A stretch of 44,661 bases of DNA from a virus. Numbering within the stretch: the first letter of the stretch is position 1; each line of letters opens with the position of its first letter. The stretch spans positions 1 through 44,661 of IMG/VR virus record IMGVR_UViG_3300033145_001580; one strand, 5' to 3'. The notes beneath the pieces were generated by a model. It ran no database searches and was not told the DNA's origin. It saw only the letters and a program-made list of their open reading frames with translations. Positions 909-44,606 of this stretch are shown here, in pieces. Both the position numbers and the translations under genes were made by a program.

Positions 909-933
909 GGTCTGTTCATTGTCTAAACAGACC
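909..933. repeat. 25-bp palindrome site
   Basis: Left arm GGTCTGTTCA, spacer TTGTC, right arm TAAACAGACC (one change from TGAACAGACC). It lies just upstream of the promoter at 995-1023. Confidence 0.85.
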
Positions 934-2864: not shown

Positions 2865-2889
2865 GGTATGTTCACATAATGAACAGACC
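2865..2889. repeat. 25-bp palindrome site
   Basis: Left arm GGTATGTTCA, spacer CATAA, right arm TGAACAGACC. Intergenic, between the terminator at 2790-2827 and the gene at 2908. Confidence 0.9.
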
Positions 2890-7513: not shown

Positions 7514-7538
7514 GGTCTGTTCATTATGTGAACAGACC
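7514..7538. repeat. 25-bp palindrome site
   Basis: Fully symmetric copy: left arm GGTCTGTTCA, spacer TTATG, right arm TGAACAGACC. It lies between the ATPase and ssDNA-binding-like genes, 25 bases ahead of ATG 7564. Confidence 0.92.
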
Positions 7539-9238: not shown

Positions 9239-10569
9239 TGGAAGTTGCTACTAAAATAAAACCAGAGGTAGGGGTAACCAGCCCAAGCCAGATTGAGGTA
9301 GGAGAGAGGTTCCGAAAGGACTATGGTAACATTGACCGACTAGTTAACTCTATCCTATCTGTAGGTATTATCCAACCCCTTGCCGTAAAGCGTCTAGGTG
9401 AGGACACCTATAGGCTCCTAGCTGGTGGGCGTAGATTCCAGGCAGTTACTAAGGCTAAGGTGGAGATTGTTCCTATCCGCATATATGACAAGGAGCTGGG
9501 CGAGCTAGAGATGCGGTCGATAGAACTCATGGAGAATGTTGAGAGGAAGGACCTGGAATGGCAAGAGGAAGTAGCCCTGACTGAGGAGATTCATAACCTC
9601 CAAATGACTATACATGGTGGGGCTAAGAAAAGCACCTCAGCTGATGCTACAGGTTGGAGTGTCCGAGATACCTCAGACCTCCTTATGCGCTCGGCTGGGA
9701 CAATTAGCCAAGATTTGAAACTGGCTAGGATTGCAAAGAGTGTCCCAGAGTTCTCCAAGGCTAAGACCAAGTCTGAAGCTCTTAAGCTACTCCGAAAGGG
9801 TGAGGAAGAGATTCTCCTCGCTGAGCTGGCCTCAAGAGTGGCTGCTAAGGAGGCAGCCTCAGGAGAGGACTTGATAATGAAGACCCTTCGAGATTCCTAC
9901 CTCTGTACTGATGTTATTACGGGGATAGAGGGCCTTCCTGATAAGTCGATAGAGCTGGCTGAGATTGACCCACCTTATGGGGTAGAGTTTGGTCGAATCT
10001 CAGGAGATGAGAGGTATAAGGAGACGGAGGATTTGGCTGAGCTTCTCTCCAAGACTCTTCGATACCTCCACTTCAAGATGTCAAATGACAGCTGGATAAT
10101 AGTCTGGTTCCCAACTACACAATACTATCCAGTCTTTAATCTTATAACTGAGGCAGGCTTCTCACCGAATCCTATCCCTGGTATCTGGGTCAAGCCTGGA
10201 GCAGGAAGAGTTCAGCGTCCAGAGGAGCAGCTAGGTAACAACTATGAAACTTTTTTTTATGCCTCCAAGGGAAAACCCCGTTTGAATCAGATGGGGCACT
10301 CTAATGTGTACACCTTTAGACCTATTCAAGGTACGAGGCATCCTGTTGAAAGACCTATTGAGTTTGGCGAAGCCTTGTTAGCTACCTTCGCTCCTCCAGG
10401 CTCAACTATTCTTGTTCCTTTTGCTGGTAGTGGCAACATGCTACTCTCCGCTTATAATATAGGAATGCCTGCGATAGGGATAGATAATGGCCAGACCTAC
10501 AAGGACAGCTTTGATGTCCATGTTAGCTCAGCCGGCAGACCATTTAAGTCTTATCGAAAGGAGGATTAG
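9238..10569 (+). CDS. ParB-like nuclease/DNA-binding domain fused to DNA methyltransferase
   Basis: 443 residues. The N-terminal domain (about 15-110) is a ParB/Srx-type domain: VGIIQPLAVKRL, then LLAGGRRFQA (G63-R66) and ELMENVERKDLEW (E99-N100), the ParB core motifs. The C-terminal domain is a SAM-dependent N4/N6-type methyltransferase with IDPPYG (D244-Y247, catalytic motif) before FAGSGN (F395-G399, SAM motif), i.e. beta-type order. ParB-methyltransferase fusions are known from phages, usually as host-restriction avoidance; the ParB part may aid site choice. It is coupled to the previous gene (TAATG). No restriction enzyme is present nearby. It is also a candidate for reading the recurring palindrome, without direct evidence. 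Confidence 0.88.
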   Translation: MEVATKIKPEVGVTSPSQIEVGERFRKDYGNIDRLVNSILSVGIIQPLAVKRLGEDTYRLLAGGRRFQAVTKAKVEIVPIRIYDKELGELEMRSIELMENVERKDLEWQEEVALTEEIHNLQMTIHGGAKKSTSADATGWSVRDTSDLLMRSAGTISQDLKLARIAKSVPEFSKAKTKSEALKLLRKGEEEILLAELASRVAAKEAASGEDLIMKTLRDSYLCTDVITGIEGLPDKSIELAEIDPPYGVEFGRISGDERYKETEDLAELLSKTLRYLHFKMSNDSWIIVWFPTTQYYPVFNLITEAGFSPNPIPGIWVKPGAGRVQRPEEQLGNNYETFFYASKGKPRLNQMGHSNVYTFRPIQGTRHPVERPIEFGEALLATFAPPGSTILVPFAGSGNMLLSAYNIGMPAIGIDNGQTYKDSFDVHVSSAGRPFKSYRKED

Positions 10570-13202: not shown

Positions 13203-14352
13203 GCTCTGGACTGGAATCTCCACAATAGCTGCTTGTCTTAAGAGGAAGTGTTACCTCTCTTGGGGTTTTATAACATTCTACCCCAATATGTATATAGTCC
13301 TAGTAGGACCAAGTGGCTGTAGAAAAGGAACTGCTATGGGTCCTGGCTATAGTATGCTCCAGGACCTAGGAATCAAGATGGCAGCTGAGGCTATAACCCG
13401 TGAGGCATTGATAAGGGAACTGAAAACTAGTACCGAAAGCTCAATAGATACCCGCTTTGGTACAGCGAGCTTCCATGCCTCTTTGACAATATTTAGCCAA
13501 GAACTTACAGTCTTCCTTGGCTATAACAACCAGCAACTAATGGCAGATATGGCAGACTGGTATGACTGCCGTAAGACATGGACATACCGAACAAAGAACA
13601 TGGGCACAGATGAGATTATAAACCTTTGGGTAAACCTCTATGGAGCCACAACTCCTGAACTCCTACAGTCCGCGCTCCCACGAGATGCTATAGGAGGAGG
13701 CCTAACTAGTCGGATAATCTTCATCTATGCCAGTCAGAAGGCTAAGCGGGTAGCTGTACCCCTCCTAACCGATTACGAGAAGGAGCTAGGAGACAAACTT
13801 CGGCAGGACCTTGAGAGAATCCACATGATGGCTGGACAATTCAAACTATCCGCCGCCCTAATGGAACGCTGGGTAGAATGGTACAATGACCCTACTCAGA
13901 ATCGTGCCCCCTTCGACGACTACCGTTTCAATGGCTACTGTGAACGTAGACCGGGCCACATCCTCAAGCTCGCCATGATTTGCAACGCCGCTCGGAGTGA
14001 AGACATGGTTCTCGAAGTAAAAGACTTTGACCAAGCTCTCCACATCCTAGAAGAGTCCGAGATTCTAATGCCTAGAACTTTCAGTGGCGTAGGCAAGAGT
14101 AACACGGCTGACCTTGTCCATCGCCTTATAGCACTACTAACCTACAAAGAATCAATCTCCTACAAAGAATTGATGACACGTTTTTACCAAGACATGGACA
14201 GCCATACATTAGAAGAGGTCGTTGGTACACTCTCTACAATGGGCCTAGCCAAACTAGTAATCAAGGGTCGTGACCGGATACTTACTCGGACTCCAGCCCT
14301 TCTACAACAGTACGGCCAGGAGCCGAGTGGCACAGGTATGTTCACTAAATGA
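13123..14352 (+). CDS. DUF3987-type ATPase, putative replicative helicase
   Basis: 409 residues starting in the end of the polymerase gene (80-base overlap). The YIVLVGPSGCRKGTA segment is a Walker A (G62-T70) in the DUF3987 setting; STIAACLKRKCYLSWG and FSQELTVFL also fit that family. The last ~80 residues (SYKELMTRFYQD, LEEVVGTLSTMGLAKLV) look like a winged helix. DUF3987 proteins often carry or accompany a primase domain and act as replication helicases; here no primase domain is fused. The gene position right after the polymerase supports a replication role. The stop codon lies in palindrome 14335-14359. Confidence 0.75.
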   Translation: MSGRILDNWLNSFMEYTDNSEPPSLYRLWTGISTIAACLKRKCYLSWGFITFYPNMYIVLVGPSGCRKGTAMGPGYSMLQDLGIKMAAEAITREALIRELKTSTESSIDTRFGTASFHASLTIFSQELTVFLGYNNQQLMADMADWYDCRKTWTYRTKNMGTDEIINLWVNLYGATTPELLQSALPRDAIGGGLTSRIIFIYASQKAKRVAVPLLTDYEKELGDKLRQDLERIHMMAGQFKLSAALMERWVEWYNDPTQNRAPFDDYRFNGYCERRPGHILKLAMICNAARSEDMVLEVKDFDQALHILEESEILMPRTFSGVGKSNTADLVHRLIALLTYKESISYKELMTRFYQDMDSHTLEEVVGTLSTMGLAKLVIKGRDRILTRTPALLQQYGQEPSGTGMFTK

Positions 14353-14359
14353 ACATAGC
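14335..14359. repeat. 25-bp palindrome site
   Basis: Left arm GGTATGTTCA, spacer CTAAA, right arm TGAACATAGC. It overlaps the last codons and stop of the ATPase gene; 15 bases separate it from the next site at 14375. Confidence 0.85.
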
Positions 14360-14374
14360 TGTAGAAATTACTTT

Positions 14375-14399
14375 GGTCTGTTCAGATAATGAACATACC
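14375..14399. repeat. 25-bp palindrome site
   Basis: Left arm GGTCTGTTCA, spacer GATAA, right arm TGAACATACC. Centre to centre 40 bp from the site at 14335, about four helical turns, so two bound dimers could lie on the same DNA face. It sits 24 bases before ATG 14424. Confidence 0.92.
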
Positions 14400-14423: not shown

Positions 14424-14801
14424 ATGGCTACAAAAGCAGAACTGGAACAAGAGGTGGTTAGGCTGAGGAGGAAGATTCAGGAGGGTGAACTTGAGGAGGA
14501 CTTAGAGTCCTTCAAATTTCTTATTACCTTTTTCCACCTCCAATTTTGCACCCTTGTACATGATGAGGAGTGTTCTTACTATCTGGAGGAGTCTATGGAG
14601 AATACGTGGGCGCAGCCTGAGCACCTGAAGTGGACAGGGGTAGTGATAAAGCTCCTTGAGGCTTGTCAGTTGGATGTAGAAAATGAAGAGGACAGAGAAC
14701 ATATTGGCAAGACCTGCCAATTATACAAGAGGTTTGCGTCCAGCACCCTGAAGCAACAGATGCTACTCCAATGGATGCTGGACCCTAATCTAGAAGTTTG
14801 A
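14424..14801 (+). CDS. Hypothetical acidic protein
   Basis: 125 residues, ATG 14424 after AAAAGGAGAAAAGAG. Almost wholly helical and acidic: an N-terminal coiled-coil-like part (ELEQEVVRLRRKIQEGELEEDLESF), a middle with several Cys, and a Leu-rich end. It follows a double palindrome, so it is the last early gene and perhaps separately controlled. Its last 12 bases overlap, tail to tail, the end of the late block. No family recognised. Confidence 0.55.
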   Translation: MATKAELEQEVVRLRRKIQEGELEEDLESFKFLITFFHLQFCTLVHDEECSYYLEESMENTWAQPEHLKWTGVVIKLLEACQLDVENEEDREHIGKTCQLYKRFASSTLKQQMLLQWMLDPNLEV

Positions 14802-17800
14802 GCCTGCGGGCTGACCTTCAAATTCGGTCCACCTTTCAAGGACTTCTCCACGCTTAGCCAGCTCGGTCTTTATAAACTCACGGGTTAAAGGGTCGAGTTG
14901 GCGCATCTTCCAGTTACGCCGTAGGGTTGTATACGTGATGCCTAGTTCTGCCATTTCAGCCACCGTCTCATCATCAAGCTCTTGGCCCTTACTCAGCTGG
15001 TCTACTACAATATCTGCCAGCTTACTCTTGTTGGCATTCCTAACTTGCCTCTCTTGGCGAAGTCTGCGTTGGGAGCCTCGGACTAGGGATTGTTCTAGGC
15101 TGCCTGCTCCTGAGACACCCTTCATAACCATGGCTAGCTGGTCGAAGGCTCCTTCCCCGATGTGGAACATCCTCTGCCCACGCTCATTCTTGACCCAGCC
15201 ATCCTTATCCACCATCTGCTCGAACATCATATTCCAGTGGCGCAAGATAGGAACGGTGCCTGAGGCCCACTCTACAAGTTCTGTAGGTGCTGTTGTCCAA
15301 GGACTCATGAAGGGTTTTTCCATACCAAAACCTTCACCCTTCATCAGCGGAGTTATAACATCTTTTCTCAGCCTCATTATGTCACTGAGGAAAGGTCCCA
15401 TCCAATCCTCAAGCCTAGTTGGGAATTGGAATACAGCAGGAGCAGTTACATCCACGCCGAGGTAACCTCCAACTCCTCGGGAGAGTCTAGGAGCCTCAGT
15501 ATCTAGCCACTCATCTATCTCCCGCCAGGCTGACTCTGGTACAGCTAGGGATAGGATAGGTAGTGACCGAATAACATACATGAAGCCACGAGGCCCACCC
15601 AGAACCGTCTGCATGGCCATATACTTGGCTATCTCGGCTCCTCGAAGGCTGCTGATAAACTCAATCTCCTTAATAAGATAAGGCTTGAACTGTCCTATAA
15701 GTCTACCTGTCGGCCCACGCATCCAGGTGGGCAGGGCTGCTGTGTTATAGGTAAACTCTTGGAACCAAACTCCACGTATTGCTGATTCTCTGGCTGCCTC
15801 CTCTGTGGCTCCTTTGCTCTTGGCCAGCAGGTAGTTAGTGGCTGCACTTAGTTCCCGGAGAGGACCCTCAGGTGCCTGAAAGAATCCCATAGGATGAGCT
15901 ATGTCCTTAAGGTAACCAGATATACCTCCAGCAGCCTTCCTTCTTCGACCTATCTTAGTGGCAAACTGGATTTCACCTGCTCCAGTCATATATTCTACTA
16001 TGTCCACTCCAAGGTTGGGCTTAATCTCACGGATAAAAGCCTTACCCTCTGGGGTCTTCAAGAATGCCTGGCCATCTCTGATAGCCTGGGCACTAGTCTT
16101 AATCCAGATATGGCTAAGCCCTGAGGCATAGTTAATTGCTCCAGCTATAGGCCGATAAGCAAACTTGGTCCAAGCCTCAGCCGTCTTAGCCTTGGCTATA
16201 GCTCTAGAATAGCCCTGCTTCTTGAAGGAGACTCGGCCACCTGACTTCTGTTCTACCACGCCAAGCATCCAATCTACCAACTTATCTCCAGCCGTGTAGC
16301 GTCCCTTGGTATCCTCAATGAGCCTAGTCAGGGCTGCCTTAGCATTAGGAGGTAGATTAGGCAGAATCTTCCTAGCTTCTAGGATAGCCGGGTCCAGGTG
16401 CATCTTGGACTCCATGATTCGAGCGTAGGCTAGGGACAGATTAAAAATGTCCCGTTCTCCCTCTAGTCTCCCCTTCCGTTTCTCAGCAAAGGCACTGAAC
16501 TTGAGTGTTGGGGTAACTGTCGGTCCCTTTCTTCCACGGAGAGCCTCCTTTGAAAACTCCTTATCAAGGGCCTTCATATAACTACGGAGTTCCCTCTCCA
16601 TCTCCTCATTGACTGCGTGGAACTCTCCTTTGCGGAGCTCCATTAGGCTCTCATGAGGATGCTTAACATCCAGGACTACATTCTTGACCTCAGGATTCTT
16701 AAGGGCAAACTCACGCCACTTCTCCCGTGCATGTTTAGGTGAGAGTACATAGCCTATCAGCCTGCCCTCCTCTGTAAGTAGCCTCATCGAGCCACGCTCA
16801 ACCCTGGTCACATACTGGTCAAGGCCCCAACTATCTATATCCTTATACTCCTTAGCTATGGATTCGAGAACCTTAGTATCCAGATTAAAACGAGCCGCTA
16901 CCTCTTTTGGTGTAGCTCCAGCTAGCATACTATCCAGGGCTTGATACTGGTTACTGCTGAGCTCCTGCCTATAGATACCCTTCAAGTAGACCTTAAACTT
17001 ATCCCGCATATGGTCAAACCAACTCCGCATCTTAGCCGCTGCTTCAGCTTCAGCAGGATTCCTCGCCGACAACTTGCCTTCCATAACTCCTCGTATTCGA
17101 AGTTGGTCCTCCTTAGAAAGGGTATCTGAGATAGCCCTAATGGAGGTAGCATGTTCCTGTGTTGCATAGCGGGCCCGCATTTGGCCACGAGTTAGGGCTG
17201 TAACAGGTTCTAGGAGCCCAGGAATCTTCTTAGCCCAGAACATGGGACTCCAGACGTAGTCTATCATCGGGACAATGTCCTTCTCCACATTCATCAGGAG
17301 TACCTGGGTTCCACCCTCACCTTGGACAGAATCTAGTAGCTGTGTACTGGGATTTTTAACTGCTCCAGCATTCCAGAGTTTCTGAATGGCTGACTTGTAT
17401 ACACGGCCTAGGGTAGTCTTAGGCTGAGTTGCTTCAAACTCCTTCAGCTGTTCTGTATAAAGGTTCCAGGCCTCAACTACCTCGGCCTTACTTTCTACAG
17501 CTATACCTTGCTCCTTTGCCCACTGGGTAAACTCCTCATTGTAGTGCTTAGGCAGGCGGATAACTTTCTCCTTGGTCTCCTTTGGGCCACTAAAGACGGT
17601 GGTATCAGGTTCACCCTTAGGCCTACCACTCCTACTAAAAACCTCATCCAGATACCTCACCTCCCCCGCTGCATTTACATATTCAGTAGGGTCCTCAAAG
17701 TCGAGCTCCTCCTTCCCAAACTCCCTTTCTATAAAATCCTCCCCTAAGATATCCTCCGTAGTTTCCTCCTTCGGCTCCTCCTTTTCAACAACCCTCTTTT

Positions 17801-20147
17801 TTCTCCTACTAACAGGCTTCTTTCTTTCCAGCCTATCCCTCAGCCCAACCTTAATAACTGCTCGCCTCTCTATCCCTGCGAGCTCCTCTGGCCCAAGTAC
17901 AATACGGGCTAGGTCACTAATAGTATCTACAATACTTCCTATTCCCTTCTCATCCTTCTCCAACATCTGTCCCAGCTCTTCGCTCAGAGCCTGTCCTAGC
18001 TCCTCCTCCTCCTCACCCTTCTTAACAGCCCTACCCTCCTTAGCTGCCTTAGCCTTGGACTTCTCCTCAGCCTCGGCCCGCCTTTTCCTTAGGTCCTCCT
18101 GAATCAGGAGCTCCCTCTGCTCCACCGCCACCCTCTGCTCCTCAGTCAGCTCACGGCTCTGTAACTCCTTCCTCTTAGCCTCAAGCTCCTTAAGTAAGGT
18201 AGCCTTCTCCTCAAGGGTCATCTTATCTTGTGTCTTCAAAGAGTACCCATGCTTCTGCAACTCCCTACTCAAAGGGGCATTCTCCTCAAGCCACTTAGGC
18301 TCATCCAACTCCGTCTTACTCTCCTTCTTAGCCTTAGCAAGCCTCTGAGTCAAGGTCGGAGCCTTCTTAACTCTCTCCTTAGCAATCCTTTCCTTCAAAT
18401 GAGGCTCAAAGAACTTCACTAGGTCCTTATCCACCAAATCCTTCTTGAAATACCTCATCAGGATCCGCTCAACAACATCAATCACCTTAGCTACCAGAGG
18501 TTTATGAAGAGAATCTGGAATCCTATGCGAGTACAAATATTGCTGCCACTGCTCAGCAAAGAACTCCGAGAAGTTGTCAGCCCCATTAGTAGTCTTATCC
18601 GGAATCATCTCCTTCATCTTATATCCAGCATCTACTTTATCCATCATGGTCTGTAGATATGAGAGCCGCTCTTTACCTGAGAGAAGGTGATAAAAGGCGT
18701 AGTGTCCTATCTCATGACCGGAGACCATGATAGTACGCAGGGAGACTAAGTTACGGGCAAAGTCATAAACGCCCCTCTTAGACTCTCCCACCTCTAAAGG
18801 TGCAAACTGGAAACCAGGCTCCTTCTTCAGCTCACCTATAGCAGCCCTAAGTGCCTGCTCCTGCTTCTTGTCCAGCTTAAGCTCCCTGACTAGATTCTGG
18901 ATAGAGGGCTCCATATCAGCCTTAGGAATCTTATAGGAATTCTTCTTAGCCATCCGCTCGGCAAACTCAACTAGGCTCAAATATTGGGCTCGACCTTCAG
19001 GAGTATAATTCTCCTGGTATACCCTAGCCCTTAGGGATAGGTAGTCATAGGCATCCAGAACAGTATCAGGTGTAAGACCTGTACTATGCTTAGTCAACAC
19101 CGCTTGACTCTCCTTATCCAACTCCCCAAACTTCACTGGTCTGTTCAGAGATTGAACATACCTGCGCTGCTCTGCGATAGTAGGTTCTGTAGTAGGCCTA
19201 GGTCTACCTAAAATCTCCTCTGCCCTAGCTGCATCCCGCTGTTCGAGCTCCTGTTCTACCTGTGTAGTCTCCTCACTAATCCGTTTAGAGACCTCACCCT
19301 TAGCTGTCCTATATTGTTGGTCCAGATAATCAAGATGGTCCCGAAGCTCAGCATCTCCAAGACCTTTGAACTCCAGCTTGTCAGGTAGAATAAGCTCCTG
19401 GTATCCTATCTCATCCCACTGCCTCATGGCCTCATCTATGCCAGGTTCTACTTGTCTCCTAGCTTCAGCCTCAGCCCGGATAAGTTCCTGGGCATTCTTA
19501 TCCAGTGGGCGGTCCTTAAGCCTTCTAGCTAACCCACCTCCAAGTTTCCCAAGAATCTTAAAGGCTGGGTGCAGAACACCTACTGAGGTAGCAAAACCTA
19601 TTGCTTCTTCAGCCCCATGTTTTGCCCTCTCTATAGCGGTGCTCTCAGGAGGCGCACCCAGCGTACCTACCAGAGCACCTGCTCCACCCGCTCTAGTTGC
19701 TGCCTTAAGTGAACTAGGAAGGATACCTTCTCCCTTTACCGCAGTCAGGGCCTTAGCTACACTAGCCAGCTTCGGCACTGCTCTAAGACCACCCATCACT
19801 GCACCCTCACCTGCGGCATAAAGTGGAAGCTGTGGAGCAAACTCTAGTAAACCTGTTCCTAGCTTCCCATACCAAGTCTGAGCAGGAAAGGCCTCTAGTC
19901 TCTGCACCTGTGGAGTCTTGTAGAGGGCCTCGGCAGCCTTTGACATATCAGAAGTTTGGACACCCAAGAAATCTCCTATATTAGCTGTGGTTTCCAGTAG
20001 ACCCCCATAGCCACGGGTAAGAATTCCTCCTGTACGTTGGGCAAAAGAAGGCTCGTCTTTCCTAGCTTTCAGAAAACTAACCTGCTCCTCATGGCTCAGC
20101 CCATCAGGCATATCCACTATACGACCATCTGGCATACTAACTTGCAT
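14790..20147 (-). CDS. Giant internal virion/ejection protein with zinc-peptidase motif
   Basis: 1785 residues, last gene of the late block, ATG four bases after the previous stop (GAGGTAACATT). N-terminal ~200 residues are Ala/Gly-rich with hydrophobic patches. A HEIGH motif (H478, E479, H482) in a hydrophobic helix is a zinc metallopeptidase signature. Residues about 600-770 are Lys/Glu-rich coiled coil. The C-terminal half is long and helical, with no clear transglycosylase motif. Position and size match the large core/ejection proteins of short-tailed phages that enter the cell with the DNA; the peptidase may clear the envelope or process other proteins. It contains palindrome 19138-19162 (RYVQSLNRP). 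Confidence 0.7.
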   Translation of the reverse strand: MQVSMPDGRIVDMPDGLSHEEQVSFLKARKDEPSFAQRTGGILTRGYGGLLETTANIGDFLGVQTSDMSKAAEALYKTPQVQRLEAFPAQTWYGKLGTGLLEFAPQLPLYAAGEGAVMGGLRAVPKLASVAKALTAVKGEGILPSSLKAATRAGGAGALVGTLGAPPESTAIERAKHGAEEAIGFATSVGVLHPAFKILGKLGGGLARRLKDRPLDKNAQELIRAEAEARRQVEPGIDEAMRQWDEIGYQELILPDKLEFKGLGDAELRDHLDYLDQQYRTAKGEVSKRISEETTQVEQELEQRDAARAEEILGRPRPTTEPTIAEQRRYVQSLNRPVKFGELDKESQAVLTKHSTGLTPDTVLDAYDYLSLRARVYQENYTPEGRAQYLSLVEFAERMAKKNSYKIPKADMEPSIQNLVRELKLDKKQEQALRAAIGELKKEPGFQFAPLEVGESKRGVYDFARNLVSLRTIMVSGHEIGHYAFYHLLSGKERLSYLQTMMDKVDAGYKMKEMIPDKTTNGADNFSEFFAEQWQQYLYSHRIPDSLHKPLVAKVIDVVERILMRYFKKDLVDKDLVKFFEPHLKERIAKERVKKAPTLTQRLAKAKKESKTELDEPKWLEENAPLSRELQKHGYSLKTQDKMTLEEKATLLKELEAKRKELQSRELTEEQRVAVEQRELLIQEDLRKRRAEAEEKSKAKAAKEGRAVKKGEEEEELGQALSEELGQMLEKDEKGIGSIVDTISDLARIVLGPEELAGIERRAVIKVGLRDRLERKKPVSRRKKRVVEKEEPKEETTEDILGEDFIEREFGKEELDFEDPTEYVNAAGEVRYLDEVFSRSGRPKGEPDTTVFSGPKETKEKVIRLPKHYNEEFTQWAKEQGIAVESKAEVVEAWNLYTEQLKEFEATQPKTTLGRVYKSAIQKLWNAGAVKNPSTQLLDSVQGEGGTQVLLMNVEKDIVPMIDYVWSPMFWAKKIPGLLEPVTALTRGQMRARYATQEHATSIRAISDTLSKEDQLRIRGVMEGKLSARNPAEAEAAAKMRSWFDHMRDKFKVYLKGIYRQELSSNQYQALDSMLAGATPKEVAARFNLDTKVLESIAKEYKDIDSWGLDQYVTRVERGSMRLLTEEGRLIGYVLSPKHAREKWREFALKNPEVKNVVLDVKHPHESLMELRKGEFHAVNEEMERELRSYMKALDKEFSKEALRGRKGPTVTPTLKFSAFAEKRKGRLEGERDIFNLSLAYARIMESKMHLDPAILEARKILPNLPPNAKAALTRLIEDTKGRYTAGDKLVDWMLGVVEQKSGGRVSFKKQGYSRAIAKAKTAEAWTKFAYRPIAGAINYASGLSHIWIKTSAQAIRDGQAFLKTPEGKAFIREIKPNLGVDIVEYMTGAGEIQFATKIGRRRKAAGGISGYLKDIAHPMGFFQAPEGPLRELSAATNYLLAKSKGATEEAARESAIRGVWFQEFTYNTAALPTWMRGPTGRLIGQFKPYLIKEIEFISSLRGAEIAKYMAMQTVLGGPRGFMYVIRSLPILSLAVPESAWREIDEWLDTEAPRLSRGVGGYLGVDVTAPAVFQFPTRLEDWMGPFLSDIMRLRKDVITPLMKGEGFGMEKPFMSPWTTAPTELVEWASGTVPILRHWNMMFEQMVDKDGWVKNERGQRMFHIGEGAFDQLAMVMKGVSGAGSLEQSLVRGSQRRLRQERQVRNANKSKLADIVVDQLSKGQELDDETVAEMAELGITYTTLRRNWKMRQLDPLTREFIKTELAKRGEVLERWTEFEGQPAGSNF
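19138..19162. repeat. 25-bp palindrome site inside the giant protein gene
   Basis: Left arm GGTCTGTTCA, spacer GAGAT, right arm TGAACATACC. On the coding (minus) strand it reads RYVQSLNRP. Confidence 0.92.
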
Positions 20148-20151
20148 AATG

Positions 20152-20964
20152 TTACCTCGTCAAAACCTGCATTAAAGCACTACCAATATCAAGATTCAAC
20201 CTAGCATTTGGGTCCCTGCCCTGTCGAAGAGCCTGCTCTCTAGCCAACCTTGCATTTGCCTCAGACCAGGTCTCTGGCTCCTCATCCTTGACAATATCTC
20301 CATATGGAGTGGGCTTTACAACTGCCTCTGAAAGCTCAGGAAATCCAAGCACATCCCTCAGCCCGATAATCATAGCATCAGCCTCGGCTGACCTAGGTTT
20401 GGACCCACCTAATCCTGCAGTCGTCCGTTCACTAGGAGTCTTAGCAGCCCAGTCCTTAGCTGAGACGTTGCCAGAACTCATAAGCCTGGCTAACTCATCC
20501 AACTGGTTCCTCTTCTCCAAAGCTAAAGTAGCCCGCCCCTGAGATTCATAGGTGAGAACATCCCCCATAAACTTCTGCATGGTCTCCGAAGACCCAAAGA
20601 TATCTAGGGCCTGACCCATATCTTTGATACTAGCCGGGAGAAATTTCTTCAGCCCAGCAGGAACCTGATATCCAGTCAACTCTGTCCTGGTCTTAGTCTT
20701 CAAATCCTCTACTGCCTGCCTTGTAGCCTCATCCCTCTCAAGGGCTCCAGCTGCTGCAATCCTAGATGGCTCCCCAGCCTTGGTCAAGGCCGCCGCCTCT
20801 CCTTCAGGACTCCTCTTATACCTCGAAGCCTCAGCTTCCTCAGCCATCCTCTTAGCAGCCTCGCCATAATAACCAGACTTAGCCAGGCTCTCTCTTCGCT
20901 CCGTCTCTGCTTTACCCATTGCCAACTGCTGCTCCGGACTTAGCCCCAGTGAAGTCATCTCCAT
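20152..20964 (-). CDS. Putative internal virion protein
   Basis: 270 residues from ATG 20964 (a GTG directly before it is possible). Only a weak ribosome site is visible. It is helical and Ala/Glu/Lys-rich in the N-terminal half (KSGYYGEAAKRMAEEAEASRYK), with a Pro/Gly C-terminus. No motif recognised. Placed between a glycine-rich membrane-active protein and the giant ejection protein, it is likely a core/ejection component. Confidence 0.55.
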   Translation of the reverse strand: MEMTSLGLSPEQQLAMGKAETERRESLAKSGYYGEAAKRMAEEAEASRYKRSPEGEAAALTKAGEPSRIAAAGALERDEATRQAVEDLKTKTRTELTGYQVPAGLKKFLPASIKDMGQALDIFGSSETMQKFMGDVLTYESQGRATLALEKRNQLDELARLMSSGNVSAKDWAAKTPSERTTAGLGGSKPRSAEADAMIIGLRDVLGFPELSEAVVKPTPYGDIVKDEEPETWSEANARLAREQALRQGRDPNARLNLDIGSALMQVLTR

Positions 20965-20984
20965 CACGTTGCCACCACCAGGGC

Positions 20985-21392
20985 TTACCGAAAATCCGTG
21001 TTCTGTCCTCCCAGAATAGCAGCCAAGACTTTGTTCAAGTTCGTATCCTGCCTCCCCATCAACTCATCCTGTCTTAGCCCAGCCATTCCACCAGTAGCCA
21101 TTCTCTGGGCTAACTGTCCAAGAGGGTGGTCTCCAGCCATAGTACCAAGCACATTGGCAATATTGTAACCTGTAGCCTTACCCTCTGGTGAGCTCATATA
21201 GCCCTTGAATCGGTCCCACATCCCAGGAGCAGGGGCTCCAGGAAGGGTACTTGGGTCTAGACCAGTATTCACTCCCGGCAAGGGCATCTTAATATTTGCC
21301 ATTGCATCTGAGGCACCTTGAGGACTAGTAATAGTTGTTGCAAATCCTCGGTCACCTAACAAACTACCTAAACTACTCATATCAAAAGCCAT
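20985..21392 (-). CDS. Putative virion protein
   Basis: 135 residues; start preceded by GGAGGTAGGAGAA. Gly/Ala/Met-rich and low complexity, with a helical C-terminus (LRQDELMGRQDTNLNKVLAAILGG). Phage core and ejection modules often contain such short Gly/Ala-rich proteins. No catalytic motif. Function assigned only from position in the block. Confidence 0.5.
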   Translation of the reverse strand: MAFDMSSLGSLLGDRGFATTITSPQGASDAMANIKMPLPGVNTGLDPSTLPGAPAPGMWDRFKGYMSSPEGKATGYNIANVLGTMAGDHPLGQLAQRMATGGMAGLRQDELMGRQDTNLNKVLAAILGGQNTDFR

Positions 21393-21422
21393 TTCTCCTA
21401 CCTCCTATCCTTATTATAAGAC

Positions 21423-22451
21423 CTACATCAGGAATCCACCTATTCCACCTACAACGGCCCCAATAGCTGTTCCTATCCCTGGACTAATAGCACTTCCTAT
21501 CATCGCCCCAGAGGCTGCTCCACCCAATGCCCCACTCAAGGCACTTGACTTACCCATTTCTTCTCCACCTGGAACATATGTGCCACCTCCAATAGCAGCA
21601 AGAGCATTTCCAGCATAGCTGAACACCTCCAGGTCCCACTTACCATCCTTCCCATCTATATCCAAATCATCCTTCGCCTGCTGGGCCTTGGCAATAACCT
21701 TGATTCGATTACCTTCAGTAGTCAAAGAGGCCACACTCTTCTCCCCCTCCACACGAGCCATCTGTAGCCCACCCATCTTACTCACAGCCGTGTCGATAAG
21801 CCTAGCCCGCTCACTGTGTGCCTTAAAGTTCATATCTGCCTGGTACATAGCCACATCCCTATCTGCCATCCCCTCAATATGACTCTGGCCTATCACAAAG
21901 GCACTTGTCAGAACTCCATTTATATCCCTCATACCACCCTTAAATCTAGGCAAGACCTCATTCTCAATCCTATCATCCAGATTATCCGAAAATGCTGAAA
22001 CAGCAGCCGTGATATAAGAAGCCGGCAGGACTGTAGCATCTATCTTAGCCACTGCCACATCTACCATATTCTCCCAATCCGTCTCATAATTTAGGGCATC
22101 TACTACTGTATCAAAGGCACATACTGCTGTTAACAAGGCTGCAACAGGAACATCTGGGTCGTAGGCAGCGGCTCCAGAGTATGGACTACTCCCATAAGCC
22201 GCATTAAGGGCATCAAAGAGGGAGTTAGTTGGGACATCCCCAGCAATAGTAAAACCCTGGTCATCCCCTGCCATTATCAATCCATGTAGACCTTTCATAT
22301 AAGGAGGATAATCAACCTTACCACTAGCCCCACCTCCACCACTCCCACCACCCTTAGCACAAGTCGTTGGTCTGTTCAGATAATGAACATACCTGTGAGT
22401 AGGACTATAGGGGTCATACCTCTCAAAAGGCTCCGCTCCATGTATCCACAT
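21423..22451 (-). CDS. Glycine-zipper internal virion protein
   Basis: 342 residues; start follows GGAGGTGTAAG. After a Gly-rich stretch (GGGSGGGGASG, about 35-45) comes a helical middle, and the C-terminus is a glycine-zipper hydrophobic segment (GAASGAMIGSAISPGIGTAIGAVVGG) able to insert in membranes. This pattern is typical of short-tailed phage ejection proteins that form a channel in the inner membrane. Palindrome 22369-22393 is inside the gene and encodes RYVHYLNRP near residue 20. Confidence 0.65.
   Translation of the reverse strand: MWIHGAEPFERYDPYSPTHRYVHYLNRPTTCAKGGGSGGGGASGKVDYPPYMKGLHGLIMAGDDQGFTIAGDVPTNSLFDALNAAYGSSPYSGAAAYDPDVPVAALLTAVCAFDTVVDALNYETDWENMVDVAVAKIDATVLPASYITAAVSAFSDNLDDRIENEVLPRFKGGMRDINGVLTSAFVIGQSHIEGMADRDVAMYQADMNFKAHSERARLIDTAVSKMGGLQMARVEGEKSVASLTTEGNRIKVIAKAQQAKDDLDIDGKDGKWDLEVFSYAGNALAAIGGGTYVPGGEEMGKSSALSGALGGAASGAMIGSAISPGIGTAIGAVVGGIGGFLM
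22369..22393. repeat. 25-bp palindrome site inside the glycine-zipper gene
   Basis: Left arm GGTCTGTTCA, spacer GATAA, right arm TGAACATACC. Read on the coding strand as RYVHYLNRP. Confidence 0.92.
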
Positions 22452-22452
22452 C

Positions 22453-22884
22453 TTACACCTCCATTCTTAGAAAGGTCATCTCAGCCTCTCCTCCCATCTT
22501 CCTAAATAGGTTTATAATACTAGGGACATTCGTATAGCCCACCATTAGGCTACATCCCTTACCTTTAGCATACTTCGTGAGGGTGTTCCAACCATCTAGC
22601 CAAATCTTCTTAGTCAGTCCACCACTAGACCACATAGAGTAGACATTAAGGCTGCGGGAGCCTGAGCAGAAGTCCTCGTTGAAGGAGGTTAGGATGATAC
22701 CTATAGCCTTCTTCTCCTCAGTTACTATCACCCAACAGTCCATTGCTCCTATTAGGAGGCTCTTAAGGATATTACTCAGAGCATCCTCAGTTAGAACAAT
22801 AAAGGGTGGATAAGCCTCAACTACTGAAAGTCTTATATCCGACCAGACTCTAGGAATCTGCTCCGGAAGAAGTTTTACCAACAT
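22453..22884 (-). CDS. GNAT-like acetyltransferase, putative
   Basis: 143 residues, ATG 22884 inside the end of the previous gene (35-base overlap). The order WVIVTEEKKAIGIILTSF (strands 2-4), SLNVYSMWSSGG, WNTLTKYAKGKGCSLMVGYTNVPSIINLFRKMGGE resembles the GNAT fold: N194-type NxxSIxLFRKMG is a common end motif. Similar GNAT-like proteins occur in the tail/ejection region of other short-tailed phages. The acetyl-CoA loop (RxxGxG/A) is poorly conserved, so activity is doubtful. Confidence 0.5.
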   Translation of the reverse strand: MLVKLLPEQIPRVWSDIRLSVVEAYPPFIVLTEDALSNILKSLLIGAMDCWVIVTEEKKAIGIILTSFNEDFCSGSRSLNVYSMWSSGGLTKKIWLDGWNTLTKYAKGKGCSLMVGYTNVPSIINLFRKMGGEAEMTFLRMEV

Positions 22885-24205
22885 TATACAGCCCCCTTAT
22901 AAATCGTTTGTCGGAGAGTTTACTCCGCATCTTTATGTAGTCAAGGTTCAGACTTCCATTCCGGTAGTCAGAGCCCTTTACCTTAAGTCTTACCTCTGGC
23001 GCCGTGATATTCACAAAGGCACCTCCTTCGGGATTCAGCCGAGTCCAGCCCAAAGAGCTAAAGGTTTCCTGGGCTGCCTGGTAGTCATACCGATAGTCGG
23101 CACTTACATAGACATCCAGCAGGCTAGAATTACTATTGTAATGGTTAAGGCCTAGCTCTAGGAATCCAATAGTCTTCATCCCTCGCTGGGCTAAATCAAT
23201 GGAATCAGTGGCGAGTCTCCACTCATAGTCCTCTGTATCCTTAAAGAATCCGCAAAGTCGCCCACGATATTCGGTAAGGGAGGTAGCAAGCTGGTGCATC
23301 TCATAGAGACCATTCTCACTCAACACGAAGCCCCGGTCACCACCACAAATATAAAACTGCTTCCGACCTGGAGCATAGGAGATACGGACAGGCAGGTTAT
23401 TAGTATCTCCAAGCAAGTCCGTCATATACTCTCGGTAGCCCAGTTTCTGGAAATTCAGCTGGGCATCAGCAAGCCACAGGTCATGCTCCATATCCAAGAA
23501 GCAGTGGATTTCCTGATTTCCTGCTACATGGTTCGCACTGGCTATGCCTAGTCCTCCAAGCTCCTTCACACCAAAAGTAGTTATCGGCTCATTCACAGGA
23601 ACAAGGAGCATTCTACCTCCATCCCCATAAACGGCAACTGCATCTCCTAAGCGAAGAATCTTATGGACTAGCCCAGTCCCCCACTTATCCCAAGGCACCT
23701 TAGCATATCCAGAGGTAGCATCCTCACCTACTCGGAAGTCAAAGTTGCCAATTCCACTCCATGCAACCCAGCCGAGACTCATGTCTCCAAAGTTAGCATC
23801 ACTCTGGACAATGCCTCCCATAATAGCCTGACCCTTGAAGTTACAACAGGTCATACATTCAGGGGCCTTGCTGGTAGGTAGCTGGGATATTAGTGGGGTT
23901 CCAGTCCCAGGATTCCTTATATAAGTATCCACTGTAACTGAGTTAGGACTAGTCCCAATACTAACCACACTCGCCACATAGAACATCCCAAAGCCCGCTA
24001 TATCCACATGGTCTATACTCGCAGCTACTCCTAAGTCCTGCATATCCACGGCTGTCCATACATTACCTGTGGTACAGTAGAGTTCAAATAGGTGCAGCTT
24101 AGTATCAATTAGGGCTAAGCCTAGAGTATAATAATCCGTACCTATTACTTGTGGCCAAGGCCAACTCACCGTCCCCCATGTTCCTGTTCCAGTTATTCCT
24201 GCCAT
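22850..24205 (-). CDS. Putative tail tube/nozzle protein
   Basis: 451 residues; start after AGGAGACTAAGAA. Almost entirely strand-rich, with repeated Gly-containing turns and several Trp/Tyr motifs (WVAWSGIGNFDFRVG, FCGFFKDTEDYEWRLATDS-like), and no catalytic motif. Placed after the adaptor and before the ejection proteins, where short-tailed phages encode their tail tube B or nozzle, a beta-propeller protein. The assignment rests on position and fold pattern. Confidence 0.5.
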   Translation of the reverse strand: MAGITGTGTWGTVSWPWPQVIGTDYYTLGLALIDTKLHLFELYCTTGNVWTAVDMQDLGVAASIDHVDIAGFGMFYVASVVSIGTSPNSVTVDTYIRNPGTGTPLISQLPTSKAPECMTCCNFKGQAIMGGIVQSDANFGDMSLGWVAWSGIGNFDFRVGEDATSGYAKVPWDKWGTGLVHKILRLGDAVAVYGDGGRMLLVPVNEPITTFGVKELGGLGIASANHVAGNQEIHCFLDMEHDLWLADAQLNFQKLGYREYMTDLLGDTNNLPVRISYAPGRKQFYICGGDRGFVLSENGLYEMHQLATSLTEYRGRLCGFFKDTEDYEWRLATDSIDLAQRGMKTIGFLELGLNHYNSNSSLLDVYVSADYRYDYQAAQETFSSLGWTRLNPEGGAFVNITAPEVRLKVKGSDYRNGSLNLDYIKMRSKLSDKRFIRGLYNVGKTSSGADS

Positions 24206-24216
24206 TTCTTAGTCTC

Positions 24217-25488
24217 CTATGTTAAATATTCCCACCAGTCGTTTAATGCTCCACTACCATCATCAGAATATCCTCGTCCCATATATATAGTATTATTTAC
24301 TGCTGCCGCAACAGCAAGATTTCTCCTACTCCCTGGAAAATCGACCTCACTTTGCCAAGCATTGGTTACAGGGTTGTAAGATCCCCAAAGTGTAGAATAA
24401 TTGAAACTCCATCTACCAGTTCCAAAATAAACAAGTCCATCTGCTGCTGCCCCAACACCGGCAGATAATGCTCGTTGGAAAGGTATGTCAAGATGAAAGT
24501 CTGCTTTTTGTGTCCATTGGTCGCCAATAGGATTATACTCCCACCAACCCAACCCTCCTCCACTTAGTCCAACATAGGCTTTATCGTTTAATTCTACTGC
24601 TACCATACTTGTTGATAAACCACCTGGAAAATCTCCTTTTTGTGTCCAACTATCTTCTAGTGTATTATACTCCCACCAATCATCAAGATTATAGTAAGCT
24701 GTACCTGTTCCAACATATACTTTTCCACCTACTCCTATTGCTACTCCTTGGGACCTATAACTTCCAGGAAAATCCCCCTTCCTCGTCCAAGTATCAGTTA
24801 AGGTATTATACTCATACCAAAATTTGTTGTAACTATACCCACCTAGACCTACATAAATGTTACTACCTAGAGTTGCAGCAACAGCATGGGGAGTGTTACC
24901 ACTTACAGGAAAATCTGCTTTTTGAGTCCAAAGCTGTATTTTTGAGTTATAAGCCCACCATGAACCTCCAGTATATACCCCAAGCCCAGAATAAATAAGA
25001 TCCCCAACTGTTACTGCAATACCTCCCCAACTGGGAATAAATGGAGTATCAGCTTTTTGTAGCCATCTATCAGCTGGACAAGCCTTAACCCCACCTGTTA
25101 CAATATTTCCGCAGGAATCCTCAACAGAAATAGTTGCAGAAGCACAAATGGCAACAAGAGCATCTGTACTAACTGTATTTTCCCTTCCACTAGTTGTAAT
25201 ACTACCCAGAGTAAAGTGTAAACCCTCTATAGACCAGCTAAAGGGACCTATTCCTCCAACTACCTCAACTGTTTTGGTTTGAAGGTAGGAGAAAGAACTA
25301 AGTAGTGGAACCCACCTAAAGTAGTACCCTGGGTCACTACAAGTCCCGGCTACATCCTCCGACAACTTCATGCTAACTGGCTCCCCACATCCAATCCTCT
25401 TCAACTCAGGACGAAAGGTATTACTATGCACATGGCTCTCAGCAACCGAGTCACCTACTCCTATCATCTGAACCGGAACCCTCATCAT
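24217..25488 (-). CDS. Kelch-repeat beta-propeller tail protein
   Basis: 423 residues, 4-base overlap with the previous gene. The first ~150 residues are strand-rich and contain Cys. From about residue 150 there are six or so Kelch units of ~46 residues, each with a double-Gly-like turn, WWEYN or YWYEYN, and WTQKADFPG. Kelch units form a beta-propeller, commonly binding sugars or proteins. Codons and bases here are distinctly more AT-rich than in the flanking structural genes, suggesting recent acquisition. A receptor- or surface-binding role on the tail is likely; an enzymatic role is not shown. Confidence 0.75.
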   Translation of the reverse strand: MMRVPVQMIGVGDSVAESHVHSNTFRPELKRIGCGEPVSMKLSEDVAGTCSDPGYYFRWVPLLSSFSYLQTKTVEVVGGIGPFSWSIEGLHFTLGSITTSGRENTVSTDALVAICASATISVEDSCGNIVTGGVKACPADRWLQKADTPFIPSWGGIAVTVGDLIYSGLGVYTGGSWWAYNSKIQLWTQKADFPVSGNTPHAVAATLGSNIYVGLGGYSYNKFWYEYNTLTDTWTRKGDFPGSYRSQGVAIGVGGKVYVGTGTAYYNLDDWWEYNTLEDSWTQKGDFPGGLSTSMVAVELNDKAYVGLSGGGLGWWEYNPIGDQWTQKADFHLDIPFQRALSAGVGAAADGLVYFGTGRWSFNYSTLWGSYNPVTNAWQSEVDFPGSRRNLAVAAAVNNTIYMGRGYSDDGSGALNDWWEYLT

Positions 25489-25913
25489 GTCACCATAAAG
25501 TAATCATTAAGCAAGGTATCATCATCACTATCCGTATACCCCGTCTTAGTTAGCTTCAAGGTATGTCCACCTAACTCCACGTCCGCAACATCAAGCTCCC
25601 CATTGGCATCCGTAGTCCCCTTCAACACTCCATCCACCCAAACACTAACAGTCTGTAGGTCCGCCCCACTTACATAATCCGTCACATCAAACGTAACATC
25701 CCTAGTCCCCAAACTAGGCAAACTCTGGCCCATTCCTCCCCATGCCACCCCACTAGCATTAAGGCTATCAAAAGCCTCATGTAGCTCCACTCCACCATCC
25801 TTCGGCCCCACATTAAAGCACTCCGTAAGCCTCTCGGTATTCCTCTCCCTCCTACTACTAGCCCGGAGTCCCTTACCCAACCCATCACTAAAGACTGCCT
25901 CAAACTCCTTCAT
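25485..25913 (-). CDS. Structural protein with beta-sandwich (PEGA-like) domain
   Basis: 142 residues from ATG 25913, preceded by GGAGGCTGAGGGTC; a longer in-frame start would extend deep into the previous gene. The C-terminal half (VTFDVTDYVSGADLQTVSVWVDG, TTDANGELDVADVELGGHTLKLTKTGY) fits a PEGA/carboxypeptidase-regulatory-like beta sandwich, common as a decoration or carbohydrate-binding module in phage tails. The N-terminal half has no clear motif. It overlaps the next gene by 4 bases. Confidence 0.6.
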   Translation of the reverse strand: MKEFEAVFSDGLGKGLRASSRRERNTERLTECFNVGPKDGGVELHEAFDSLNASGVAWGGMGQSLPSLGTRDVTFDVTDYVSGADLQTVSVWVDGVLKGTTDANGELDVADVELGGHTLKLTKTGYTDSDDDTLLNDYFMVT

Positions 25914-26427
25914 GACCCTCAGCCTCCTCCAGTACCTTATCCAGCAACACCTTCTCCGAGCTTCCACTCTCCTTCTCACCAACAAAGGCCAGGCCAGTCC
26001 ACACCTCCTGAACACTAGGCTCGTCTGGTCTGTTCATTTTCTGAACATACCTAACGAACACAGTTATGCGGTCTCCAGCCCTGACAGGGATAGTCCCATC
26101 ATAGCCGGCAATATTCCGCAGAGAGGGACAAGTATAGGTTGATTTTCCTGTGGGACCTGCTACCTCTATCTCGACAACTGGAGCACTATCCTTATCTACC
26201 TTGCCCAGGTAAATAATGACATTCTTTAGTTCTCCATTACTGGATGCCAGGAATCTGAAAACTGTCCCATCTTCCTCGGGCGTCAGGATATAGCCACTCA
26301 AGGGAACAGCCGGAATGATGACCTCCGCCACCTTCACACTCCTCCTATTAAGGTGCCCCATGTAACGCTCGACCTGGGCAAACTTACTTTCCGTATCTCC
26401 TGTCAACTTAAATCTCACACTGCTCAT
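25900..26427 (-). CDS. Hypothetical tail-region protein
   Basis: 175 residues, overlapping the adaptor gene (ATGA) and the downstream gene by 14 bases. Mainly strands. Palindrome 26027-26051 is embedded in it and reads RYVQKMNRP. The final ~40 residues are Glu-rich. By position it lies between the adaptor and tail proteins, so a head-completion or tail role is likely; no family recognised. Confidence 0.55.
   Translation of the reverse strand: MSSVRFKLTGDTESKFAQVERYMGHLNRRSVKVAEVIIPAVPLSGYILTPEEDGTVFRFLASSNGELKNVIIYLGKVDKDSAPVVEIEVAGPTGKSTYTCPSLRNIAGYDGTIPVRAGDRITVFVRYVQKMNRPDEPSVQEVWTGLAFVGEKESGSSEKVLLDKVLEEAEGHEGV
26027..26051. repeat. 25-bp palindrome site inside a tail-region gene
   Basis: Left arm GGTCTGTTCA, spacer TTTTC, right arm TGAACATACC. 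Read on the coding strand as RYVQKMNRP. Confidence 0.92.
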
Positions 26428-30030: not shown

Positions 30031-30055
30031 GGTCTGTTCATTATATGAACATACC
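30031..30055. repeat. 25-bp palindrome site
   Basis: Left arm GGTCTGTTCA, spacer TTATA, right arm TGAACATACC. In the 59-base gap between the fibre-like gene and the glycosyltransferase gene. Confidence 0.92.
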
Positions 30056-30062
30056 TAGCTAT

Positions 30063-31247
30063 TTACGGATGAGCGGAGAGTATTTTACTCTCAACTCCTG
30101 AAATCAGAACACTTTGGCTTACATCCTTAGAACTCAAGCTGGATATAAGAAGGCCCTGACTAATATCCTTGGAGTCTGCCTCAGTTTCTACTCCATCAGC
30201 ATTAGCACCTGCACTAACCCCTTTAGAATCTGAGGTACTAATCAGAACACCTTGGCTGGTATCCTTAGATTCCAGTTCACCTTCAACCGTGTCAGCATTA
30301 AAGCCTGCACTGACTCCTTTGGAATCTGCTTCACTAACCAGGAGACTCTGACTTGCACTCTTAGAATCCGCCTCACTCTCAACTCCATCGGCGTTGCTCC
30401 CACCACTGACCCCTTTCGAGTCCGCTTTAGAGACATTAAGGCTATTACTTACAGCCTTAGAATCCGCCTTACTGATATTAAGGACATTAGAGTCCGCCTT
30501 GGAATCTCCAGAGTCACCAACAGTTCCACCACTGACTCCCTTAGAGTCTGCAACACTTATGTTAAGAGAGTTGGAAACAGTCTTACTGATTGCCTCAGAG
30601 TTCCCACCACTAGAGGCAAGACTTGTTGCCTCACTGATAAGAGCACTTTGGCTAACAGCTTTAGAATCCGCTTCACTCTCTACACCGTCAGCATTACTTC
30701 CAGCACTAACTCCCTTCGAGTCTGCGGTAGAGGTCAACAGGCTTAAAGAGTCTGCCTTTGAACTCTCACCACTAATAAGCGTAGAGTTACTTCCTGTCTT
30801 AGAAGTAGCCCCACTCAAACCAGTACTGTTACTCACAGCCTTGGAGTCCGCCTTACTAACATTGATAACATTGGAGTCCGCTTTACTATTCGCTGTTACC
30901 CCAGCAGTTACCTTAGAGAGCAAGGCACTTGCCAGTTTTGCGTCCGTGACCGACCCATCTGCTACAGTTGCAGATGCTCCAAGGACAAAGTCACAGGTGG
31001 TAGTGTCCCCCTGATTCTCATAGAAACCCCTTGTTCCTGCCACCACATCCGTTTTAAGAAACACACCGCCTTTGGAATATCCAGAAACTCCAACAGGATT
31101 GGTAGTACCAGAGGCAAGCAAGATATTACTATCCTCATCATAAAGCATGACGGTGACATCTCCCACTGTTCTTCCAATTATTTTGAGCTTCTCAACCTCT
31201 CCTGCACGGTATAGCCTATATAAAAATCTGTCTATGCTTGTTCCCAT
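30063..31247 (-). CDS. Fibre-like protein with ADSK/SNS repeats, no tip domain
   Basis: 394 residues; start after GGAGGTATAGAATGTC. Residues 1-100 are a compact strand-rich N-terminal domain (VTVMLYDEDSNILLASGT). From about 110 to the end the protein is a run of 14-residue repeats, roughly ADSKxVSNSLxISK, with regularly spaced hydrophobic positions, as in trimeric fibre shafts. The protein stops in the repeats (SVLISGVESKILSAHP), so no receptor-binding tip is present. The same repeats occur near the N-terminus of the 1488-residue fibre. It could be a shaft/adaptor subunit or a fibre that has lost its tip. Confidence 0.7.
   Translation of the reverse strand: MGTSIDRFLYRLYRAGEVEKLKIIGRTVGDVTVMLYDEDSNILLASGTTNPVGVSGYSKGGVFLKTDVVAGTRGFYENQGDTTTCDFVLGASATVADGSVTDAKLASALLSKVTAGVTANSKADSNVINVSKADSKAVSNSTGLSGATSKTGSNSTLISGESSKADSLSLLTSTADSKGVSAGSNADGVESEADSKAVSQSALISEATSLASSGGNSEAISKTVSNSLNISVADSKGVSGGTVGDSGDSKADSNVLNISKADSKAVSNSLNVSKADSKGVSGGSNADGVESEADSKSASQSLLVSEADSKGVSAGFNADTVEGELESKDTSQGVLISTSDSKGVSAGANADGVETEADSKDISQGLLISSLSSKDVSQSVLISGVESKILSAHP
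30075..30900 (-). repeat. ADSK/SNS shaft repeats of the short fibre-like protein
   Basis: About 20 degenerate 42-base units encoding ADSKxVSNSLxISx or ADSKGVSxGxNADGVE variants. They run to the end of the gene. Confidence 0.75.
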
Positions 31248-34477: not shown

Positions 34478-34502
34478 GGTCTGTTTAGATAATGAACAGA
34501 CC
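34478..34502. repeat. 25-bp palindrome site
   Basis: Left arm GGTCTGTTTA (one change), spacer GATAA, right arm TGAACAGACC. Lies in the gap between terminase and portal genes. Confidence 0.88.
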
Positions 34503-43315: not shown

Positions 43316-43340
43316 GCTATGTTCACATAATGAACATACC
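43316..43340. repeat. 25-bp palindrome site
   Basis: Left arm GCTATGTTCA (one change), spacer CATAA, right arm TGAACATACC. 65 bases upstream of the late promoter's -35 box. Centre to centre 40 bp from the next site at 43356. Confidence 0.88.
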
Positions 43341-43355: not shown

Positions 43356-43380
43356 GCTATGTTCAGAGAATGAACAGACC
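43356..43380. repeat. 25-bp palindrome site
   Basis: Left arm GCTATGTTCA, spacer GAGAA, right arm TGAACAGACC. Forms a pair with 43316-43340 at the same 40-bp distance seen for the pair 14335/14375. Confidence 0.88.
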
Positions 43381-44465: not shown

Positions 44466-44490
44466 GGTCTGTTCAATATGTGAACATACC
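44466..44490. repeat. 25-bp palindrome site
   Basis: Left arm GGTCTGTTCA, spacer ATATG, right arm TGAACATACC. 55 bases after the last gene. Confidence 0.92.
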
Positions 44491-44532: not shown

Positions 44533-44558
44533 ATGTATATGCGTAGGCACATATACAT
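44533..44558. repeat. Inverted repeat near right end
   Basis: ATGTATATG (44533-44541) and CATATACAT (44550-44558) are inverted copies around an 8-nt loop. The 16 bases 44543-44558 also match 59-74 in inverted orientation. Confidence 0.65.
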
Positions 44559-44606
44559 ACCCCCCCTTCTACTTCACAAAGTATTTTTTAAGCCGGAGCG
44601 GTTTTT

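Follow-up and report, generated by a model that had tools for sequence, protein, structure and literature searches.

Does a palindrome that recurs inside unrelated phage genes act as a site in the DNA, or does it belong to the proteins that it encodes? The question is raised by a 44,661-bp virus record (IMG/VR IMGVR_UViG_3300033145_001580; this whole stretch is called the window below), which has an SU10-type capsid and portal, early genes on the plus strand and late genes on the minus strand. Pattern matching with at most one mismatch gave 13 copies of a 25-bp palindrome with a 10-5-10 layout (consensus GGTMTGTTCA-N5-TGAACAKACC) in the window. The expected number is 0.02, and none of the shuffled versions of the window reached 13 consensus copies. 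We argue that these copies are parS-like sites for the phage's own ParB-methyltransferase fusion, a putative sliding clamp that would mark the DNA. To this explanation as a whole we assign a probability of about 72%.

Related phages carry their own site families

Relatives of the window were collected through the major capsid protein (MCP; 50) and through alignment of the primase (80), the two sets partly overlapping. Long contigs were read whole, IMG/VR records may be fragments, and a simple rule was used to call open reading frames (ORFs). Most relatives have a family of 25-bp palindromes of their own in the shared 10-5-10 layout, in which the outer hexamer approximates SCTNYR and the inner tetramer varies from one genome to the next (TTCA, TTAA, TTAC, TCCA, GGGA, TGCA, GTAA, ATGA and others). 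A gap scan showed enrichment at exactly 5 bp, with 6 bp instead in G004, G005, G072 and L292; G004 and several others were scored motif-negative at first and were later shown to have a 6-bp spacer or a different outer hexamer. In some genomes, generic de novo clustering without the outer constraint mostly picked up codon and AT repeats.

A relative holds about 6–18 sites, evenly spaced, on a genome of 35–50 kb; the complete, circular genome of Desulfofustis phage LS06-2018-MD01 (44,443 bp) has about nine GCTATGTCCCAANTTGGGACATAGC-like sites. The window DNA gave no similarity match to known phages, and a host search returned ten metagenome-assembled genome contigs of mixed phyla. Within IMG/VR the exact palindrome of the window was found in one contig, because relatives use other inner tetramers. 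One relative without the fusion gene, G056 (L247-L248), contains a composite element of another kind, about 35 bp long (CAGAACC-natCAGAWTCTGaat-GGWTCTKA) and evenly spaced, in about nine places, e.g., 2111, 6727, 11025, 16021, 24104, 31392 and 34163.

A ParB-methyltransferase fusion is the candidate reader

The proposed reader combines domains PF02195 (4.8e-16 in the window) and PF01555, and its Foldseek matches include Noc (7nfu), ParB (7bm8) and CcrM (6pbd, E 1e-14). The 43 members show little or no variation at the nucleoside triphosphate (NTP) box residues G63/R65/R66 and E99/N100/R103 and at the methylase residues D244, P245-P246 and G397-S398-G399 (DPPY and FxGSG motifs). The C-terminal part proved to be a beta-class methyltransferase and not a ParB dimerization domain. 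In the AlphaFold2 (AF2) model, with a mean predicted local distance difference test (pLDDT) score of 87.8, helices 142–149 and 153–168 form a helix-turn-helix (HTH).

Wherever a site-bearing genome includes its early region, the fusion gene is there; G014 and G047 have neither the fusion gene nor such palindromes. The Desulfofustis phages MD01 and MD02 share a host species by CRISPR, and sites occur in MD01 only; in MD02 the ParB-methylase is not annotated and dispersed palindromes were not found. That MD02, assigned to the host of MD01, shows no such sites argues against a host reader. We then scanned the fusion protein in 12-residue windows across 40 genomes, correcting for primase distance. 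The five windows that best predicted motif similarity all fell in the HTH, with modest correlations (r = 0.25–0.32, median window 0.007), and the distance between whole fusion proteins showed no correlation with the motif. On these sequence comparisons, the fusion protein very probably reads the sites.

Residue 153 follows base 7 of the site

In Caulobacter ParB, R173 bonds guanine 1 of parS, and a Gln at that place reads adenine 1 (Jalal et al., PMC7383237). In a gap-free alignment, residue 153 of the fusion protein falls opposite the Gln of the Noc HTH (GKGQSTIANKL / GKSPSTVSQDL); the Thermus plasmid ParB was too divergent to align at the HTH, and the Noc chain was used instead. In the first 40 phages, G at base 7 of the site was accompanied by H, R or K at this residue in 7/7 cases, and A by Q in 3/3. 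Out-of-sample genomes paired H or R with G in 5/5 against 0/7 (p = 0.0013), Q with A in 1/1 (L291), P or Y with T in 4/4, and K with T twice. Pooling 52 genomes gave 11/13 against 1/39 for H or R with G (p = 1.5e-8) and 4/5 against 0/47 for Q with A (p = 1.8e-5), values that are somewhat optimistic since the grouping of H and R without K was picked after the tables had been viewed; the out-of-sample p = 0.0013 is the cleaner test.

The primase tree implies about 10 changes of base 7 and 12 of the residue class, so the agreement does not reflect one inherited event. A screen of protein columns against site positions placed A153 with base 7 second among 2840 combinations, behind outer position 1 with E371; many of the other associations probably reflect lineage. 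Base 7 lies 13 bp from its mate, or 14 bp in the genomes with a 6-bp gap. The equivalent bases of parS are 14 bp apart.

Half-sites and spacing

At variable positions the two arms matched in 451 of 1300 cells, where 611 were expected (z = -10.7), and no compensatory pairing was found. Maintenance of a hairpin would give the opposite, so agreement below chance indicates that no hairpin is maintained. The pattern fits two half-sites that are read independently, with some avoidance of perfect palindromy. In all site-bearing genomes the half-sites differ beyond chance at variable positions, as if perfect palindromes were avoided.

Sites in relatives are spaced at a mean of about 3–8 kb, and the evenness of spacing exceeded random in 40/40 genomes. 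Compared with matched random positions (same intergenic share, 400-bp minimum distance), spacing was more even in 39/39 genomes (combined z = -11.5), and the largest gap between sites was smaller (z = -10.1; 39 genomes). Coding sequence makes up about 89% of the DNA, yet 329 of 422 sites (78%) are not wholly within an ORF of at least 80 aa. Internal sites occur in 53% (21/40) of genes of at least 3.6 kb and in 3–6% of shorter genes, and this enrichment in long genes implies that spacing is maintained at the cost of protein sequence. The original prediction had proposed selection for sites at intervals of about 3–5 kb despite such a cost; the evenness and the long-gene enrichment strongly support it.

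The gaps between genes that bear sites are also conserved among genomes (z = 15.7). A site lies behind the MCP gene in 23/27 genomes; the window is an exception, its copy at 26027 being within a gene about 1.2 kb off. From this synteny, sites seem to stay put while their sequences change.

Copies within genes

The three in-gene copies at 19138, 22369 and 26027 were indeed found in one shared frame with the predicted peptides. Read on the minus strand, RYVQSLNRP lies in the ORF at 14790–20147, RYVHYLNRP in that at 21423–22451 and RYVQKMNRP in that at 25900–26427. One of the three frames has a TGA stop, as had been noted, and two are open, so three copies would agree in frame with a chance of about 1/4; taken alone, the shared frame is weak evidence. 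Among all relatives, 46 of 93 in-gene sites use the RYVxxxNRP-type frame. No further ORF of any relative has RYVxxxNRP, which marks the repeat as a site in the DNA rather than a motif of the protein. The suggestion that the site is carried as a neutral 9-residue insertion was borne out in part: in the 175-aa protein it fills a loop that is about 9–11 residues shorter in most homologs, whereas the regions around it in the other two proteins are hypervariable, so that an exact insertion is not demonstrable there.

Features of the window

The copies and the proposed reader are listed in Table 1. Each of the two site pairs is spaced by exactly 40 bp, and the pair at 43316/43356 lies upstream of the late gene block. 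The 116-aa family at 2421–2771 has no Pfam or PHROG match and is co-conserved in the phage group like the ribbon-helix-helix (RHH)-type regulator at 513–899. The 116-aa protein (A) and two RHH-like proteins (B and C) were favored as readers by the first co-occurrence screen and failed with more genomes.

Elsewhere in the window, an imperfect 48-bp inverted repeat (79%) near the ends of the record (37–84 and 44533–44580) is perhaps a terminal feature. The DNA polymerase at 10764–13202 has an N-terminal domain that looks like a uracil-DNA-glycosylase type (GEAPGEEEARTGRPFIGRSGELL), a possible fusion. The late genes contain 12-bp tandem coding repeats and coding repeats of 96-bp period (31951–32094 and 30145–30729).

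Table 1. Palindromic sites and proposed reader in the window.
Feature	Position	Strand	Remarks
Palindromic site 1, GGTCTGTTCATTGTCTAAACAGACC	909..933	.	Directly behind RHH-type gene 513–899
Palindromic site 2	2865..2889	.	
Palindromic site 3	7514..7538	.	Adjoins end of Sak4 gene
Palindromic site 4	14335..14359	.	Paired with site 5, 40 bp apart; early/late gene convergence
Palindromic site 5	14375..14399	.	Partner of site 4
Palindromic site 6	19138..19162	.	Within 1785-aa gene, RYVQSLNRP
Palindromic site 7	22369..22393	.	Within 342-aa gene, RYVHYLNRP
Palindromic site 8	26027..26051	.	Within 175-aa gene, RYVQKMNRP
Palindromic site 9	30031..30055	.	Intergenic
Palindromic site 10	34478..34502	.	Gap upstream of portal gene; that gap bears a site in 8/11 genomes
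Palindromic site 11	43316..43340	.	Paired with site 12, 40 bp apart
Palindromic site 12	43356..43380	.	Partner of site 11
Palindromic site 13	44466..44490	.	
Proposed reader: ParB_N (CTPase fold) + HTH + N6_N4 methyltransferase, 443 aa	9238..10569	+	Pfam, PDB matches, AF2 model, Foldseek, covariation
HTH segment of reader, GWSVRDTSDLLMRSAGTISQDLKLARIA, about aa 140–167	9655..9738	+	Covariation, AF2 model
Start of recognition helix, A153	about codon 9694–9696	+	Equivalent of Caulobacter ParB R173 / Noc Gln

Alternative explanations

The fusion protein could read the sites and be mainly a transcription regulator, a KorB-like clamp acting in long-range silencing or timing, with methylation secondary. 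KorB is a ParB-fold CTPase that is reported to silence genes at a distance (PMC11790492), and many of the phage sites sit at the edges of genes, follow the MCP gene or adjoin the early/late junction. However, regulation predicts clustering at promoters, whereas the sites are even and also occur within long genes, in places where promoters would not be expected; even spacing fits a function in coverage better than promoter control. Conservation of the methylase residues in the 43 members also speaks against this alternative, which we regard as unlikely. Another DNA-binding protein of the phage as reader (RHH at 513–899, RHH at 8197–8439 or the 116-aa protein) is quite improbable. These RHH and 116-aa families are co-conserved, and the RHH protein at 513–899 has a variable beta-strand and a site just behind its gene. 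However, B is lacking in the site-rich G020, C was undetected in G031, G042 and G068, and A is lacking in G004 and G040, while A or C is present in G014 and G047, which lack both the fusion gene and the sites. The partial correlations of A, B and C with the motif were also weaker.

Dispersed repressor sites of temperate phages offer another comparison, since the stoperators of mycobacteriophage cluster A and the SPbeta repeats (SPBRE), read by MrpR, likewise place many sites for one phage protein on a single phage genome (for stoperators, PMC9283540), and would serve here in lineage-specific immunity. Those are repressors of temperate phages, whereas Desulfofustis phage MD01 is predicted to be strictly lytic (PMC10370329) and a PF00589 integrase was found in 0/31 genomes, in a search that did not take in serine integrases. 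The phage sites are even 10-5-10 palindromes, unlike the asymmetric sequence recognized by the stoperator-type repressor (PMC9283540) and the 15-bp promoter-region SPBRE motif, to which a tyrosine-recombinase-like protein binds (PMC10516654). The count of 0/31 for PF00589 also speaks against a tyrosine-recombinase-fold repressor of the MrpR type, and the ParB HTH is the part to which covariation points; we consider this alternative highly improbable. Centromere sites of a ParABS partition system would account for the ParB/Noc-type CTPase fold with its HTH and for the parS-like half-site geometry, with 13–14 bp between contacted bases. However, ParA-type PF13614 was found in 0/31 genomes (14/14 control genomes were positive), the sites are genome-wide and a methylase replaces the dimerization domain. 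With no ParA, no PF00589 integrase and a phage predicted to be lytic, partition and lysogenic repression are both unlikely, and partition extremely so. A mobile palindromic element (REP/BIME-like) or an RNA hairpin or processing signal would agree with the many copies, some of them within genes. It is hardly credible given arm matching below chance, syntenic and even positions, and copies that are alike only in the 20 arm bases. The spread of a small element, which the original prediction had also offered, is not supported, in view of these shared bases and the conserved gaps, and of an inner tetramer that switches genome-wide together with the reader protein.

Comparison with known systems and proposed mechanism

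The phage system resembles ParB-parS and Noc with its Noc-binding site (NBS) in the ParB_N fold with conserved boxes, the gap-free HTH alignment to Noc, the palindromic site, the residue-to-base rule at the start of the recognition helix (R-G, Q-A) and the distance of about 13–14 bp between contacted bases. It differs in having a methyltransferase in place of the dimerization domain, no ParA found, and a 25-bp site that includes a further, conserved outer hexamer, varies among lineages and is present in about 6–18 even copies. Noc too uses dispersed sites, and KorB of plasmid RK2 has several dispersed operators. The likeness to KorB extends to its ParB-fold clamp (PMC11790492), which is putative here; KorB is a repressor and partition protein with a fixed operator, unlike the methylase fusion with its lineage-variable sites. 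The composition PF02195 + PF01555 is that of the phage fusions of a ParB-CTPase fold to an N6_N4 methyltransferase (PMC12704722), for which we propose here, in addition, the DNA sites recognized, how these are spaced and a code for their recognition.

We propose that the repeats serve as operator sites of the parS/NBS kind and that their reader is the ParB-type CTPase-fold protein of the phage itself, in which a methyltransferase stands where the usual ParB dimerization domain would be. Comparison strongly supports binding of a dimer to each palindrome, with one HTH to each half-site, and reading of the inner tetramer by the recognition helix, which would give lineage specificity. By homology with ParB, Noc and KorB, the NTP-bound protein may then shut as a clamp, move off its site and travel over kilobases together with its methylase. 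With sites every few kilobases, loading would cover the entire genome, including the interiors of very long genes. Least certain is the purpose: the protein may modify or cover the DNA of the phage and not that of the host, for example against restriction, or may provide a DNA mark for packaging or late expression. We give even odds to methylation or marking of self DNA.

Several observations weigh against this explanation. The recognition code has exceptions (G003 with H and T, G027 with R and mostly T, G054 with Q and T), and Lys is ambiguous (five with T, one with G). No palindromes were detected in G025, G048 and G067, which have the fusion gene, and G024 and G055 show them only weakly; Microcystis phage Mel-JY34, a distant ParB-methylase phage (25% identity), has no such sites, while G056 has its other dispersed palindromic element despite having no fusion gene. 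Related genomes are also not independent samples. Some ParB-fold methylases bind ATP and not CTP (PMC12704722), so the nucleotide, and with it the chemistry of the clamp, may differ here.

Significance

Phages often encode ParB-methyltransferase fusions, whose role a 2025 survey left open (PMC12704722). Our analysis proposes DNA targets for them and predicts a sliding-clamp methylase. It is tentatively, at slightly less than even odds, that we suggest an undescribed form of self-marking in lytic phages, in which a ParB-type clamp methyltransferase, loaded at lineage-specific, even sites, would modify or coat the whole phage genome and not that of the host, and in which reader and sites would have switched specificity jointly, genome-wide and many times. 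The roughly 50 natural pairs of reader and site, with their repeated switches of specificity, offer material for the study of joint change in a DNA-binding protein and about ten sites per genome. The phages also preserve the spacing of these sites at the expense of protein sequence.

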